Source: a virus
Reading direction: 5' to 3' (one strand)
DNA length: 64,000 bases
IMG/VR virus record: IMGVR_UViG_3300017749_000007
Span: 1-64,000 of that record
Shown here: one piece after another, positions 4,453-7,773 of the stretch
Layout: each line of letters opens with the position of its first letter
Numbering within the stretch: position 1 is the first letter of the stretch
The notes under the pieces: generated by a model
The model's input: only the letters and a program-made list of their open reading frames with translations
Database searches by the model: none
Told to the model about the DNA's origin: nothing
Translations under genes and position numbers: made by a program

Positions 4453-5625
4453 ATGTCAGAACTACTAGAAAGTCGCTGGCAGGAGACCAAAGGTGCACTA
4501 GTTGAAGGATTAACAGGAAATAAGAAATCTGTTATGGAAGCAACACTTGAGAATACTAGAAAGTATTTGTCAGAGAGTGCAACAGCAGGTGCAACTTCTG
4601 CAGGCAACGTAGCAACTCTAAATAGAGTTATTTTACCAGTTATTAGACGTGTAATGCCAACTGTGATCGCGAACGAGATCGTTGGTGTTCAGCCTATGAC
4701 AGGACCAGTGGGTCAAATCCACACATTACGAGTACGTTACGCTGATGCCTTTACAGGTACAGCAGGCGGATCAGCGGCAGCAGGCGAAGAGGCTTTAAGC
4801 CCATTCAAAATTGCTGAAGGCTATTCAGGTAATGCAAATGGTAAAGCAGATCCAACAGCATCAAAAGAAGGTGTTGCTGGTAACAGACTAAGCATTCAGA
4901 TTCTAAAACAAACAGTAGAAGCTAAGACACGTAAATTGTCAGCTCGCTGGACGTTTGAATCTGCACAAGATGCGCAGTCACAACACGGTATTGATGTTGA
5001 AGCAGAAATCATGGCAGCTCTTGCACAAGAGATTACAGCTGAGATTGATCAAGAAGTATTAACTTCATTAGCATCATTAGCAGGTACAGGTACTGATACT
5101 TACAACCAAGCTGGTGTAAGTGGTACTGCAACATTCGTCGGTGACGAACATGCGGCATTAGCTGTATTAATTAATAGAGCGGCAAACAGAATTGCACAAA
5201 GAACACGTAGAGGCGCAGGTAACTGGGCTGTTGTTTCTCCAGCAATTTTAACTGTCCTTCAATCAGCAACAACTTCAGCGTTTGCAAGAACAACTGAAGG
5301 TACGTTTGAAGCACCAACTAATACTAAAATGGTTGGTACATTAAACAATGCTATGAAGATCTATGTTAATACATATGCGGCAGACGACGATGTACTAGTT
5401 GGCTACAAAGGCTCAAGTGAATCAGATGCGGCAGCATTCTATTGCCCATACATTCCGCTAATGAGCTCAGGTGTTGTACTAGACCCAACTTCATTCGAAC
5501 CAGTTGTATCATTTATGACTAGATACGGATATGTTGAGTTAAACAACACAGCGTCATCTTTAGGTAACGCGGCTGATTACGTTGAAAAAGTTGAAGTGAA
5601 TAGCAACAACTTATCATTCTCGTAA
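4453..5625 (+). CDS. 23: Major capsid protein gp23
   Basis: T4-type major head protein with an HK97 fold. Recognisable segments are NVATLNRVILPVIRRVMP, ANEIVGVQPMTGPVGQIHTL and, near the end, VSFMTRYGYVELN. It has 390 residues, clearly shorter than T4 gp23 (521) and than most cyanophage versions, so insertion-domain loops are reduced. A site matching the gp21 rule (L-S-E, residues 39-41) precedes the conserved body; cleavage there would remove a 41-residue N-terminal peptide, analogous to the 65-residue T4 delta piece. The ribosome site AAGGAG is strong. A rho-independent terminator follows, closing the head operon. No separate gp24 vertex gene is seen in the window. Confidence 0.95.
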   Translation: MSELLESRWQETKGALVEGLTGNKKSVMEATLENTRKYLSESATAGATSAGNVATLNRVILPVIRRVMPTVIANEIVGVQPMTGPVGQIHTLRVRYADAFTGTAGGSAAAGEEALSPFKIAEGYSGNANGKADPTASKEGVAGNRLSIQILKQTVEAKTRKLSARWTFESAQDAQSQHGIDVEAEIMAALAQEITAEIDQEVLTSLASLAGTGTDTYNQAGVSGTATFVGDEHAALAVLINRAANRIAQRTRRGAGNWAVVSPAILTVLQSATTSAFARTTEGTFEAPTNTKMVGTLNNAMKIYVNTYAADDDVLVGYKGSSESDAAAFYCPYIPLMSSGVVLDPTSFEPVVSFMTRYGYVELNNTASSLGNAADYVEKVEVNSNNLSFS

Positions 5626-5650
5626 GCAGAATATAGTTTTTAACTATACT

Positions 5651-5678
5651 AAAGGGCGGCTTAGGTCGCCCTTTTTTT
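5651..5678 (+). terminator. Rho-independent terminator after gp23
   Basis: Perfect 8-bp stem AAAGGGCG/CGCCCTTT with an 8-base loop, followed by a T-run. It ends the head operon just 25 bases after the capsid stop codon. Confidence 0.9.
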
Positions 5679-5691
5679 ATGGCTAACCATT

Positions 5692-5711
5692 CGGTATATG
5701 GTTAAATACCG
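5692..5711 (+). promoter_or_regulatory. Late-type box inside a hairpin upstream of porin gene
   Basis: A TTAAATA box (5702-5708) lies in a perfect 6-bp inverted repeat CGGTAT/ATACCG (5692-5697 and 5706-5711). About 40 bases later a ribosome site (AAAGGAAA) precedes the porin ATG. The hairpin could be an operator or an mRNA 5' structure; only the sequence symmetry is seen. Confidence 0.45.
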
Positions 5712-5750
5712 CAGAAGAAACCCCTAACTATTTTCGAAAGGAAAATAAAA

Positions 5751-6767
5751 ATGAAACGGACTATAGTTATTCTGTCTGCTCTTTTCGCTTTGATATCATT
5801 TCAAGCATTTGCAGACACAAAGACTCTTGAAGAAAGAGTTACTGATTTAGAAAAGTCAGCACCAACGTTACCAACAGGAATGTTTGTTAACGGAAACATT
5901 GAAGTATTTTACGACCCAGATACTTACGATTCAGATTTTGATACACGAGCAGAAGTGTTTGTAGGACTACAATCTGAACTAGACGGTCCTATTGATTGGG
6001 CAGGAGCAAGTACTAGATTTGATTCTCAATATTCATTAGACACAACATTAAACAATACTATTGTTGAAAAACAAATTGGTGTTGGTTTAGGAAATACTAG
6101 ACTTTATGTAGGCGAAACAGATGCACAAAGATTAGGATTTGCTAAGACAGCTAAAATTGGTTTACCACTTATTATTACAGAAGCTAATAGTAGAATTGAT
6201 CATAACGAAAAGATCGTACTTACTTTTGGCGGATGGAACAACAATAATGAATTTGACTTTGATGAACATAGACTAAAAAGAGATCTACCATTTGGTTTTG
6301 CTGTAGGTTATGATGCAGAAGCAAGTACAATATACTTAGGTGGTACTGTAAGTTTAGCAGGTTATGCAGAACTATCATACATGCAAATTGGTAATAAAAA
6401 TAACATCACTAACAATGAATTAAATCAACAAGGTGTTGCTGTAGGTTCGCAAGTATTGCGTAGATATGGCATTCCGGTAGGATTTGGTGTTGAAGTATGG
6501 GACGACAAAAATACAGGATTAGCAAAAGATGATCGTGTTGACTTTGGTGTTATGTACAACTATTCTAAAGAAGTAATGTTTACAGCACATAAAGTATTAA
6601 ATGATGACCTTGGAACTGATGGTACATATCTTGGTGTAGTACATACAGCAGGACCTGTAGAAACAGGATTCTACTATCATACAGATGTTACTAATACAAG
6701 TGTATGGACAGGTGTAACAACTGAACGCGATGACAGTATTAAAGCTACTCTTAAGTATAAGTTTTAA
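5751..6767 (+). CDS. Porin-like outer-membrane beta-barrel protein
   Basis: A 338-residue protein with a classic Sec signal peptide (MKRTIVILSALFALISFQAFA, cut after AFA), then a short coiled coil (TLEERVTDLEKS), a linker, and alternating hydrophobic/polar beta strands with glycine- and aromatic-rich turns, ending in IKATLKYKF. The terminal Phe is the outer-membrane targeting signal of Gram-negative porins. It should be exported, inserted into the host outer membrane and form a channel, possibly aiding nutrient entry or blocking superinfection; these roles are inference. It sits alone between the capsid terminator and the ncRNA, with its own late-type box and ribosome site. It has no features of a virion protein. 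A general barrel protein other than a porin is the main alternative. Confidence 0.7.
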   Translation: MKRTIVILSALFALISFQAFADTKTLEERVTDLEKSAPTLPTGMFVNGNIEVFYDPDTYDSDFDTRAEVFVGLQSELDGPIDWAGASTRFDSQYSLDTTLNNTIVEKQIGVGLGNTRLYVGETDAQRLGFAKTAKIGLPLIITEANSRIDHNEKIVLTFGGWNNNNEFDFDEHRLKRDLPFGFAVGYDAEASTIYLGGTVSLAGYAELSYMQIGNKNNITNNELNQQGVAVGSQVLRRYGIPVGFGVEVWDDKNTGLAKDDRVDFGVMYNYSKEVMFTAHKVLNDDLGTDGTYLGVVHTAGPVETGFYYHTDVTNTSVWTGVTTERDDSIKATLKYKF

Positions 6768-6773
6768 TAAATA
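6766..6773 (+). promoter_or_regulatory. Late promoter box after porin gene
   Basis: AATAAATA overlapping the porin stop codon; it would transcribe the leader at 6780-6848 and the 32-codon ORF. Confidence 0.5.
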
Positions 6774-6779
6774 ATATTA

Positions 6780-6848
6780 CGTTCAGCCAATAGGCCGGGA
6801 GTAGCATAAGCGAAGGAACGCACTTAACCCTTTAACGAGGAGAGTGTT
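6780..6848 (+). promoter_or_regulatory. Structured 5' leader
   Basis: Leader between the late box and the 32-codon ORF. It can form a hairpin at about 6807-6826 (TAAGCG pairing with CG and CTTA, two bases bulged), then runs into a good ribosome-binding site (ACGAGGAGAG). Function unknown. Confidence 0.35.
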
Positions 6849-6947
6849 ATGGATAATTACACGCTTTGGTGCTTTCAACAAATCATTAAACAGCACCACA
6901 TAAAAAAAGTTAACTTTTTATTAAAAAAGAGGTTGACTTCTGCTTAA
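6849..6947 (+). CDS. Small 32-residue ORF
   Basis: Short ORF starting MDNYTLWCFQQIIKQHHIKK and ending LLKKRLTSA. It is supported by a strong ribosome-binding site (GAGGAG, about 6 bases before the ATG) and an upstream late box. The product is basic with one amphipathic or weakly hydrophobic segment. I do not recognise it. Its 3' half overlaps a 16-bp palindrome and the -35 element of the ncRNA promoter, so it might be a leader peptide or merely transcript passing through. Whether it is translated is uncertain. Confidence 0.4.
   Translation: MDNYTLWCFQQIIKQHHIKKVNFLLKKRLTSA
6904..6919. repeat. 16-bp perfect palindrome upstream of ncRNA promoter
   Basis: AAAAAGTTAACTTTTT, centred on GTTAAC, ends 13 bases before the -35 element of the ncRNA promoter. 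It could be an operator or an AT-rich UP-type element. Confidence 0.55.
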
Positions 6948-6961
6948 TAGTTTGTTATATT
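6933..6961 (+). promoter_or_regulatory. Sigma-70-type (early) promoter of ncRNA
   Basis: TTGACT (6933-6938), 17-bp spacer, TATATT (6956-6961). This is close to the host sigma-70 consensus and quite unlike the late boxes used by neighbouring genes. Predicted start near 6968. No ORF with a ribosome site follows. Confidence 0.75.
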
Positions 6962-6967
6962 AAGTAC

Positions 6968-7212
6968 ATAAGTTAGACGACGGTGTAACTTAGATAGTGC
7001 AAGGAAGAGGTGTTACAGGCACCGAACTTGACGAGTAGCTGTAGTGGCATTGCATGACTGTGGAGACATGGAGATGTATTTTCGAACGTAACTGTTTGAT
7101 GCGAGGTTTGCGGGAAAAACAGACAGACTGTTAACCGCATTGTTGGTATTCTGAAGTCCAACCTATCACTTTTATTTAAAGCTCGATACTTAATTGTGTC
7201 GAGCTTTTTTCT
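6968..7212 (+). ncRNA. Stand-alone structured non-coding RNA
   Basis: A transcription unit of about 245 nt bounded by a sigma-70-type promoter and a strong rho-independent terminator, with no convincing ORF inside (the longest is 26 codons without a ribosome site). Predicted helices: 6970-6975 with 6986-6991 (perfect AAGTTA/TAACTT); 7000-7003 with 7027-7030 enclosing 7009-7012 with 7020-7023 (CAAG/CTTG and GGTG/CACC); 7109-7113 with 7135-7139 enclosing 7118-7122 with 7128-7132 (TGCGG/CCGCA and AACAG/CTGTT). The start and end may also pair (GTTAGAC near 6972 with GTCCAAC near 7156, one mismatch). It does not match tmRNA, tRNA, RNase P or a recognised 6S layout. It could be a host-regulating small RNA made early in infection; function unknown. 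Confidence 0.65.
7178..7212 (+). terminator. Rho-independent terminator of ncRNA
   Basis: Perfect 9-bp stem AAAGCTCGA/TCGAGCTTT (7178-7186 and 7199-7207), extendable by three pairs, followed by a T-run. Confidence 0.9.
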
Positions 7213-7218
7213 TTTATG

Positions 7219-7225
7219 ATAAATA
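7219..7225 (+). promoter_or_regulatory. Late promoter box
   Basis: ATAAATA within GATAAATAC, directly after the ncRNA terminator; drives the 7324 gene through a long leader. Confidence 0.7.
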
Positions 7226-7235
7226 CATATGTCAA

Positions 7236-7312
7236 ATAGTGTGCCGCAAGGCGGACTTATGCTGTTTAACCCACAGCGTAGCTCATAGAACGGGCATAGG
7301 ACTACTTAAATA
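7236..7312 (+). promoter_or_regulatory. Structured 5' leader of small structural genes
   Basis: About 100-base leader between the late box and the ATG at 7324. Two hairpins are visible: CCGC-AAG-GCGG (7244-7254) and ATGCTG...CAGCGT (7259-7279, one G-T pair). A second TTAAATA box lies at 7306-7312, just before the ribosome site TAGGAG. Likely an mRNA-stability or translation element. Confidence 0.45.
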
Positions 7313-7323
7313 GGAGAAAAAAA

Positions 7324-7773
7324 ATGGGAAGACCACTTAATAAAAGATTATTCAGCGAACCTACAGCAGGCGGATCTGAAATCAAAGTAAACTTTCATAA
7401 CGGCACAGCAGTTAAAGAAGGTTATATTGTAAAGCAAAAAGCTTCAAAGAAATTTGTATGTGAAGAAATTGGCACAGGCGGCGAATTTACTTGTGTACTA
7501 ACAACTGATAAATTACCAGCGGCATTAGCGGCAGGTGAAATGTCAATATCATTCAAAATGGATGATGAAGAAACATACACAGTAAGTAAAATTTCTGGAC
7601 GTAAAGCAACATTGTCAGCACCAAGTGCAACAGGCGCAAACGCTTATGATGGAAAAAGTGTTCCATGGAACTTTGCGGCATCTACAGCAGATGGAGCGGC
7701 ACAAGTTGAAGAAGCTGGTGACGATAACACACTAATTGGTACTGATGACGACGACTTCACAGAAGACGCATAA
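7324..7773 (+). CDS. Small virion-type protein, beta-rich
   Basis: A 149-residue protein beginning MGRPLNKRLFSEP. The body (EIKVNFHNGTAVKEGYIVKQ, then KKFVCEEIGTGGEFTCVL) reads as a compact beta barrel, followed by an acidic disordered tail ending in DDDFTEDA. I recall similar proteins as conserved structural-module genes in marine T4-like phages, without a defined role; head decoration or tail-fibre accessory are both possible. The next gene is a divergent copy of the same pattern. Strong ribosome site (TAGGAG). Confidence 0.65.
   Translation: MGRPLNKRLFSEPTAGGSEIKVNFHNGTAVKEGYIVKQKASKKFVCEEIGTGGEFTCVLTTDKLPAALAAGEMSISFKMDDEETYTVSKISGRKATLSAPSATGANAYDGKSVPWNFAASTADGAAQVEEAGDDNTLIGTDDDDFTEDA

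Follow-up and report, generated by a model that had tools for sequence, protein, structure and literature searches.

A divergent manA-type RNA with its own predicted promoter and terminator near the capsid gene of a phage

Introduction

The accessible part of the founding paper on the manA RNA rates it as certainly an RNA, as cis-regulatory and as probably a riboswitch (Weinberg 2010, PMC2864571). The accessible text of the S-CREM1 paper holds that the regulatory role is still to be verified, and a 2025 review of phage sRNAs, in its accessible part, enters manA as cis. No ligand of manA is reported in the literature that we searched. That literature, partly accessible and covering few subscription journals, contains no account of manA as an RNA that is transcribed separately, from a promoter to a terminator of its own.

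Phages also carry free-standing non-coding RNAs that are structured and sometimes lie next to tRNAs, such as RNA C and RNA D of T4, ROOL and GOLLD. To our knowledge, none of them has a known role. The RNA analysed here may work like them, as a structured RNA with its own gene, and we claim no kinship with them in sequence or fold. Another relevant system is CfrI of the cyanophage S-PM2, a phage RNA of approximately 225 nt which, like our RNA, comes from a T4-like marine phage (accessible part of PMC12197685). CfrI is described there as antisense and psbA-linked, whereas our unit is intergenic and has no annotated or matched gene opposite.

We analysed a window of 64,000 nt (positions 1 to 64,000 of the virus record IMGVR_UViG_3300017749_000007), where a sequence-only reading had placed an autonomous small RNA gene. 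What is new is the autonomous, terminated form of a known RNA family.

Material and methods

Alignment A2 was made with MAFFT from 19 copies, whose loci were fetched through gp23 or the downstream gene. The reciprocal model R1 was built solely from 19 window-related copies and omits the inner hairpin at 7009-7023, which aligns badly in MAFFT. R1 gave 26 plus 46 matches in the first 160 sources, and 70 plus 38 matches in 74 plus 38 context-blind core-pattern loci (among the matches listed); it had no match in four of these 112 newly fetched pattern loci (among the matches listed). We left out 15 of 180 R1 matches that were cut by contig ends. The remaining 165, at least 113 of them distinct, include L095 and L113, which are cut at the 5' end and were kept in the count. 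The cyanophage-type set comes from a pattern scan plus two genome contigs and has at least 92 distinct copies; among the matches listed, 20 of 122 rows were dropped because the 3'-end pattern failed and eight of the other 102 because of short flanks. L272 was excluded as a misplaced match, and L324 was scored as having nothing downstream although Rfam puts a tRNA at the 3' end of its RNA. It is important to highlight that relatives are not independent, so that counts of copies overstate the number of events.

Results and discussion

The transcription unit

The unit occupies positions 6933-7212, near gp23, and consists of a sigma-70-type promoter, a structured RNA and an intrinsic terminator. 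Its signals, and the box that follows it, are:

6933-6961, plus strand: sigma-70-type promoter TTGACT-17-TATATT with an extended -10 TG (site scan; kept in relatives)
6967-7212, plus strand: predicted transcript of approximately 245 nt, its start placed 6-8 nt after the -10
7178-7212, plus strand: intrinsic terminator AAAGCTCGATAC-TTAATT-GTGTCGAGCTTT with a T-rich tail (simple scan; kept in relatives)
7218-7226, plus strand: T4-type late box GATAAATAC, after the terminator and ahead of the next gene (motif scan)

The promoter boxes, TTGACT at 6933-6938 and TATATT at 6956-6961, are separated by a 17 bp spacer with TG ahead of the -10, and the terminator stem (7178-7207) is followed by TTTCTTTTAT. 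Both the host-type promoter and the rho-independent terminator were thus found where the sequence-only reading had put them, and the late box GATAAATAC after the terminator bears out its view that the unit is separate from the late gene behind. By their number in this single sequence, these signals do not stand out: between 5000 and 9500 there are 11 promoter-like sites (16.1 expected, i.e. not above chance) and four terminators (2.4 expected, i.e. not rarer than chance), and late-type boxes are not enriched window-wide (seven, with 4.98 expected). The RNA folds above chance, with an MFE of -73.2 kcal/mol (z = -3.00) that none of 200 shuffles equals. The case for the unit is made by the conservation of the promoter in relatives and the covariation of the helices (see below), which confirm, as far as sequence comparison goes, a structured transcription unit at 6933-7212.

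The forward frames agree with the earlier claim of some 245 nt lacking a credible ORF: none is open in the window RNA, the longest stop-free runs being 24, 20 and 29 codons. On the minus strand, one frame has a run of 65 codons free of stops, with a 62-aa ORF (6973-7161). Among the matches listed, no more than two of 113 window-type relatives keep any given one of the six frames open throughout, and no more than seven of 92 cyanophage-type copies do so. We rejected a hidden protein over the RNA, as no frame is kept open among relatives. Elsewhere, the annotated hypothetical proteins PHM1_121 (NC_015280, 112705-112881) and PSSM4_169.1 (NC_006884, 164884-165057) lie over manA RNAs and are perhaps not genes.

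Relationship to the manA RNA

The sequence-only reading had recognized no known RNA family, and here it has to be revised. The feature concerned is:

6970-7172, plus strand: manA-type RNA core (match to RF01745; R1 match at 6965-7172)

This core aligns with the manA model RF01745 from end to end (positions 1-192 of 192), with 45.0 bits and an E-value of 2.3e-10 (5.8e-12 when searched in its own record), a kinship in sequence and structure by which we reject an unknown RNA family. The match came from a relaxed threshold and falls short of the gathering score of 55.2 bits; at curated cut-offs, Rfam gives nothing between 6824 and 7240. RF01745 was found at E ≤ 0.01 in 28 of 43 related records, one of them, L024, above the gathering score. 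L024 has the same surroundings as the window and scores 78.6 bits; L182 (61.9 bits) and Mosig, a phage of Pelagibacter (64.0 bits), also exceed the gathering score. The cyanophages P-HM1, P-SSM4 and P-SSM2 reach 186.0, 184.1 and 181.6 bits, and no match was found in four other cyanophages, syn9, S-PM2, S-ShM2 and S-RSM4, of the eight named phages searched. In the reciprocal search, R1 recovered all eight cyanophage-type loci supplied (E ≤ 3.8e-9), with 34.7 bits for P-HM1, 37.4 for P-SSM4 and 32.8 for P-SSM2. The best blastn match of the RNA to phage records is a short piece in Mosig. The full-length match, the intermediate copies above the gathering score and the reciprocal matches indicate that the window RNA is a divergent relative of manA, connected via intermediates, and not a member at the curated threshold.

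The window RNA and the manA model have in common the 5' hairpin, the closing helix and the 3' hairpin, and the copies of P-HM1, P-SSM4 and P-SSM2 also show TATAAT 5-8 nt ahead of the RNA. The closing helix is GATAG/CTATC in the window, whereas the cyanophage copies mostly have GGGAG/CUCCC (alignment A3). The other difference concerns the 3' side. Members of the family are said to lie often in potential 5' UTRs (accessible part of PMC2864571), but the window copy ends in a terminator and has no gene attached. RF01745 is of type Cis-reg, i.e. the 5' UTR of a regulated gene, and in the window the terminator at 7178-7207 closes the unit.

Two other readings were discarded. ARAGORN finds no tRNA or tmRNA in the window and Rfam has no tRNA or tmRNA match there, which excludes both and upholds the earlier remark that the RNA is unlike them. 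A scan of genome contigs, whose exact pattern fits the cyanophage type only, gave two matches, the first in a contig with the title Prochlorococcus and the second in a gammaproteobacterial MAG. In both cases the surrounding genes are phage-like (SbcC/SbcD-like and helicase; tail fibre and phage transaldolase families). There is thus no clear chromosomal copy among them, and we rejected a cellular origin.

Conserved helices

The RNA contains the following helices:

6970-6991, plus strand: P1, 5'-terminal hairpin AAGTTA...TAACTT with GACG at the tip (the weakest helix, 77.5% of cells paired)
6993-7167, plus strand: closing helix GATAG (6993-6997) / CTATC (7163-7167) (covariation in A2)
7000-7030, plus strand: helix CAAG (7000-7003) / CTTG (7027-7030) (fold and covariation in A2)
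7050-7079, plus strand: two-part hairpin, 7050-7055/7074-7079 and 7059-7062/7067-7070 (helices 6 and 7)
7142-7162, plus strand: 3' hairpin GTTGG...CCAAC beside the closing helix (helix 10, 100% of cells paired)

We evaluated a structure of 50 pairs, made of the RNAalifold pairs plus P1 and taken from the A2 sequences themselves. In A2, 92.3% of its pair cells are formed, compared with 78.4% in shuffles, and 31 of the 50 pairs changed on both sides, compared with 18.0 in shuffles (none of 500 as high). Structures slid along A2 pair 34.7-40.4% of cells, a control that favours the 50-pair structure because the latter was derived from the same sequences. From A2, RNAalifold alone predicts 41 pairs, of which 26 show a compensated change. 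All 10 pairs of the two-part hairpin changed on both sides in some sequence, its outermost pair being U-U in the window, and the 3' hairpin is kept into the cyanophage type. The CAAG/CTTG helix is near-invariant in A2: of its four pairs, a single one shows a change on both sides, and only in L024, where by eye GCGC/GCGC is possible one column off. Covariation in the 19 copies is strong and the RNA is conserved across relatives; the sequence-only reading had named the absence of covariation or poor conservation as grounds for giving up its proposal, and the RNA withstands this check. The alignment shows, at the level of sequence, that the helices are under selection. Since 18 of the 19 rows of A2 carry a terminator, this selection appears to act on copies with no gene attached.

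This architecture bears on whether the RNA could be an sRNA that base-pairs with host or phage mRNAs and silences them. In its size, and in having a promoter and a terminator, it resembles a typical bacterial sRNA. On the other side, many of the conserved bases sit in the helices and junctions of a large fold, and by eye we noticed no long conserved single-stranded seed in A2 or A3. We regard a silencing RNA of this kind as very unlikely.

Promoters and 3' ends in relatives

Among the matches listed, a promoter with at least 10 of 12 consensus bases at most 60 nt upstream precedes 105 of 111 evaluable window-type copies and, by the same rule (at least 10 of 12), 86 of 92 cyanophage-type copies; the control gave seven of 1000 random positions in the same loci. 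For 94 of the 105 window-type promoters, the distance from the end of the -10 to the start of the model is 3, 7 or 8 nt (among the matches listed). P-SSM4 has TTGACA-17-TATAAT and P-SSM2 TTGACA-16-TATAAT. In P-HM1, the RNA lies directly after gp23 and TGCTATAAT ends 5 nt upstream of it. TTGACA stands 14 nt before TGCTATAAT, an unusual spacing, and is also part of a hairpin behind gp23; behind the RNA there is a hairpin with a loop of approximately 20 nt and T6.

The 3' ends are more varied. A terminator starts at most 75 nt downstream in 68 of 107 evaluable window-type copies and a tRNA follows in two of the 107; the corresponding numbers for the cyanophage type are 15 and six of 90, with a recurrent hairpin in another 21 of the 90 (all among the matches listed). 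Random positions gave 35 terminators in 1500. None of the three elements is nearby in 37 of 107 window-type and 48 of 90 cyanophage-type copies (among the matches listed). In the context-blind subset, a stricter rule finds a terminator in 45 of 87 copies (among the matches listed), and when an MGRP-type gene lies downstream the figure is 48 of 55 (among the matches listed). In 47 of these 48 MGRP-type loci (among the matches listed), the terminator is followed within 70 nt by a late-type box (control: 18 of 3000).

Sensor, terminator and gene is a usual order of a riboswitch, and the order of this locus fits it. The manA RNA could be the sensor of an attenuator, with the terminator as the expression platform that controls read-through into the MGRP gene at 7324. 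The table of the founding paper, as far as it is accessible, rates manA as cis-regulatory and a probable riboswitch, and many manA copies precede a gene. Such an attenuator predicts that the 5' arm of each terminator pairs best with its own RNA. Distinct 5' arms of the window-type terminators number at least 41, and some of these resemble one another. Tested against the last 110 nt of the RNA only, 41 arms pair hardly better with their own RNA (mean -7.30 versus -7.05 kcal/mol), the mean rank of which is 0.48 where 0.5 means no preference (both among the matches listed). This argues against the attenuator, as do the late box after 47 of 48 terminators (among the matches listed), the freshwater-2 leader that the MGRP gene of the window has of its own and the tRNAs that sometimes take the place of the gene. 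With no sign in this one pairing test that terminator and RNA evolve together, we rejected the attenuator, which we consider quite unlikely.

What follows the RNA is not constant: gp32, transaldolase, rubrerythrin, a tRNA or nothing. The tRNA genes lie directly downstream in L054, L020, L405, L310, L288 and L324. Genes that we take to be gp32-like from their conserved residues follow 22 copies, none with a terminator and 21 with a late-type box directly after the RNA (among the matches listed). In Mosig and L248, a rubrerythrin ORF starts 16 nt past the model end, and in P-SSM2 the RNA ends approximately 16 nt before a gene labelled purL. Among the 48 cyanophage-type copies lacking a terminator, tRNA or hairpin element, 43 have an ORF start at most 120 nt away (among the matches listed), as expected for a 5' leader. 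Copies that lead into an mRNA (gp32, transaldolase, rubrerythrin) may have a role in cis.

Such copies raise the question of whether the RNA is a 5' module that protects or processes the RNA behind it, mRNA or tRNA, and is useful in cis only, the terminated copies being leftovers. In favour of this, the RNA almost always sits at the beginning of the transcript, P1 forms its 5' end and its partners vary. Yet terminated copies are the rule before the MGRP-type gene and still covary, and a pure stabilizer might occur in several copies per genome, whereas we saw one copy per matching record in every set (28 of 28, four of four, 24 of 24 and 38 of 38; the sets overlap and most records are fragments). 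We thus view a purely cis-acting module as unlikely. One set has 13 of 37 records with no match; among these, L114 gave a cut-off copy in another R1 search.

A possible role of the RNA

The reading that we favour, and consider probable, is that of a free-standing early non-coding RNA gene of the manA kind, which probably acts in trans. The unit, its family, the selection on its helices and its autonomous build are shown by comparison of the locus with its relatives. The existence of the transcript and its early timing are suggested by these signals; action in trans is less certain. That the RNA comes with separate start and stop signals, in the window as in many relatives, suggests a job of its own during infection. 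Action in trans is favoured by covariation in the terminated set, by the varied partners, by the tRNAs directly behind the RNA and by the single copy per record. Host RNA polymerase would start at the promoter at 6933-6961 soon after infection and make an RNA of approximately 245 nt, whose first helix, P1, would begin within a few bases of the start. Transcription would stop at the terminator at 7178-7212, and the downstream late gene would use a late box of its own. The RNA would then act as a folded molecule, not as a gene leader, binding a protein or another partner, perhaps via the junction and the 3' hairpin. The sequence-only reading had put forward host RNA or RNA polymerase as a putative target.

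A broader version of this reading covers the whole manA family, which would be one conserved trans-acting non-coding RNA of marine T4-like phages rather than a collection of leaders. It would have a strong host-type promoter, be made at the onset of infection from one copy per genome and have its 3' end set by what follows, and it would owe its 5'-UTR label to early genes that came to lie behind the strong promoter. We hold this version tentatively, as close to an even call. If the RNA is indeed an autonomous early RNA, looking for a ligand and for a gene under the control of the RNA would miss the point. Copies of the family exist in cultured systems, e.g. P-HM1 with Prochlorococcus MED4.

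One related locus is informative on dispensability. L085, in a contig of 101 kb, is 99.8% identical to the window over 5001-6767 and 100% identical from window position 7160 on, the junction lying near position 7837 of L085. It is without the block 6768-7159, which holds a glutamine riboswitch and the promoter together with most of the RNA. A search of its record with R1 detects no copy. The RNA is maybe dispensable, or the contig is misassembled.

Neighbourhood of the unit

The unit is flanked by the following features:

6778-6824: glutamine riboswitch (Rfam at curated cut-offs, 43.3 bits)
6849-6947: 32-codon ORF MDNYTLWCFQQIIKQHHIKKVNFLLKKRLTSA, behind the glutamine riboswitch
7240-7326: freshwater-2 RNA, leader of the MGRP gene (Rfam, 67.7 bits)
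7324-7773: MGRP gene, the late gene behind the unit

The -35 of the manA promoter falls in the 3' end of the 6849-6947 ORF, and several relatives carry a similar ORF, e.g. MSNYTLWCYKQLIKQHQINKINNILAKKMYFW. By a simple pattern, 24 of the 108 copies with enough upstream sequence have a glutamine riboswitch; other copies have upstream ORFs of 50 or 63-65 codons (both among the matches listed). Neither the MGRP gene (7324-7773) nor the predicted outer-membrane protein at 5751-6767 has a PHROGs or Pfam match at E = 0.001. The gp23 capsid protein (4453-5625) is nearest to those of jumbo phages among phage records, with 70.7% identity to Vibrio phage 2.275.O (349 kb), and the phage of the window may therefore have a large genome.

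Some manA-bearing loci show further structured elements. At L306:8950-8988 and at 22 other cyanophage-type loci (among the matches listed), a hairpin AGACCTAAGATGCAACTC-loop-GAGTSGGGCAGATGGTCT with a conserved internal loop occurs shortly behind the RNA, mostly with a T-run. The L306 copy has no Rfam match up to E = 1, and the hairpin is possibly an unnamed terminator-linked RNA motif. L173, L212, L192 and L239 have ORF-poor stretches with long inverted repeats just after the RNA, over which no Rfam family is found at gathering cut-offs. Finally, matches to permuted tmRNAs of alphaproteobacterial type occur in manA-bearing phage contigs at L263:525-802, L173:12888-13275 and L193:7476-7740, with ARAGORN in agreement for L263 and L173, and these hint at alphaproteobacterial hosts of those phages.
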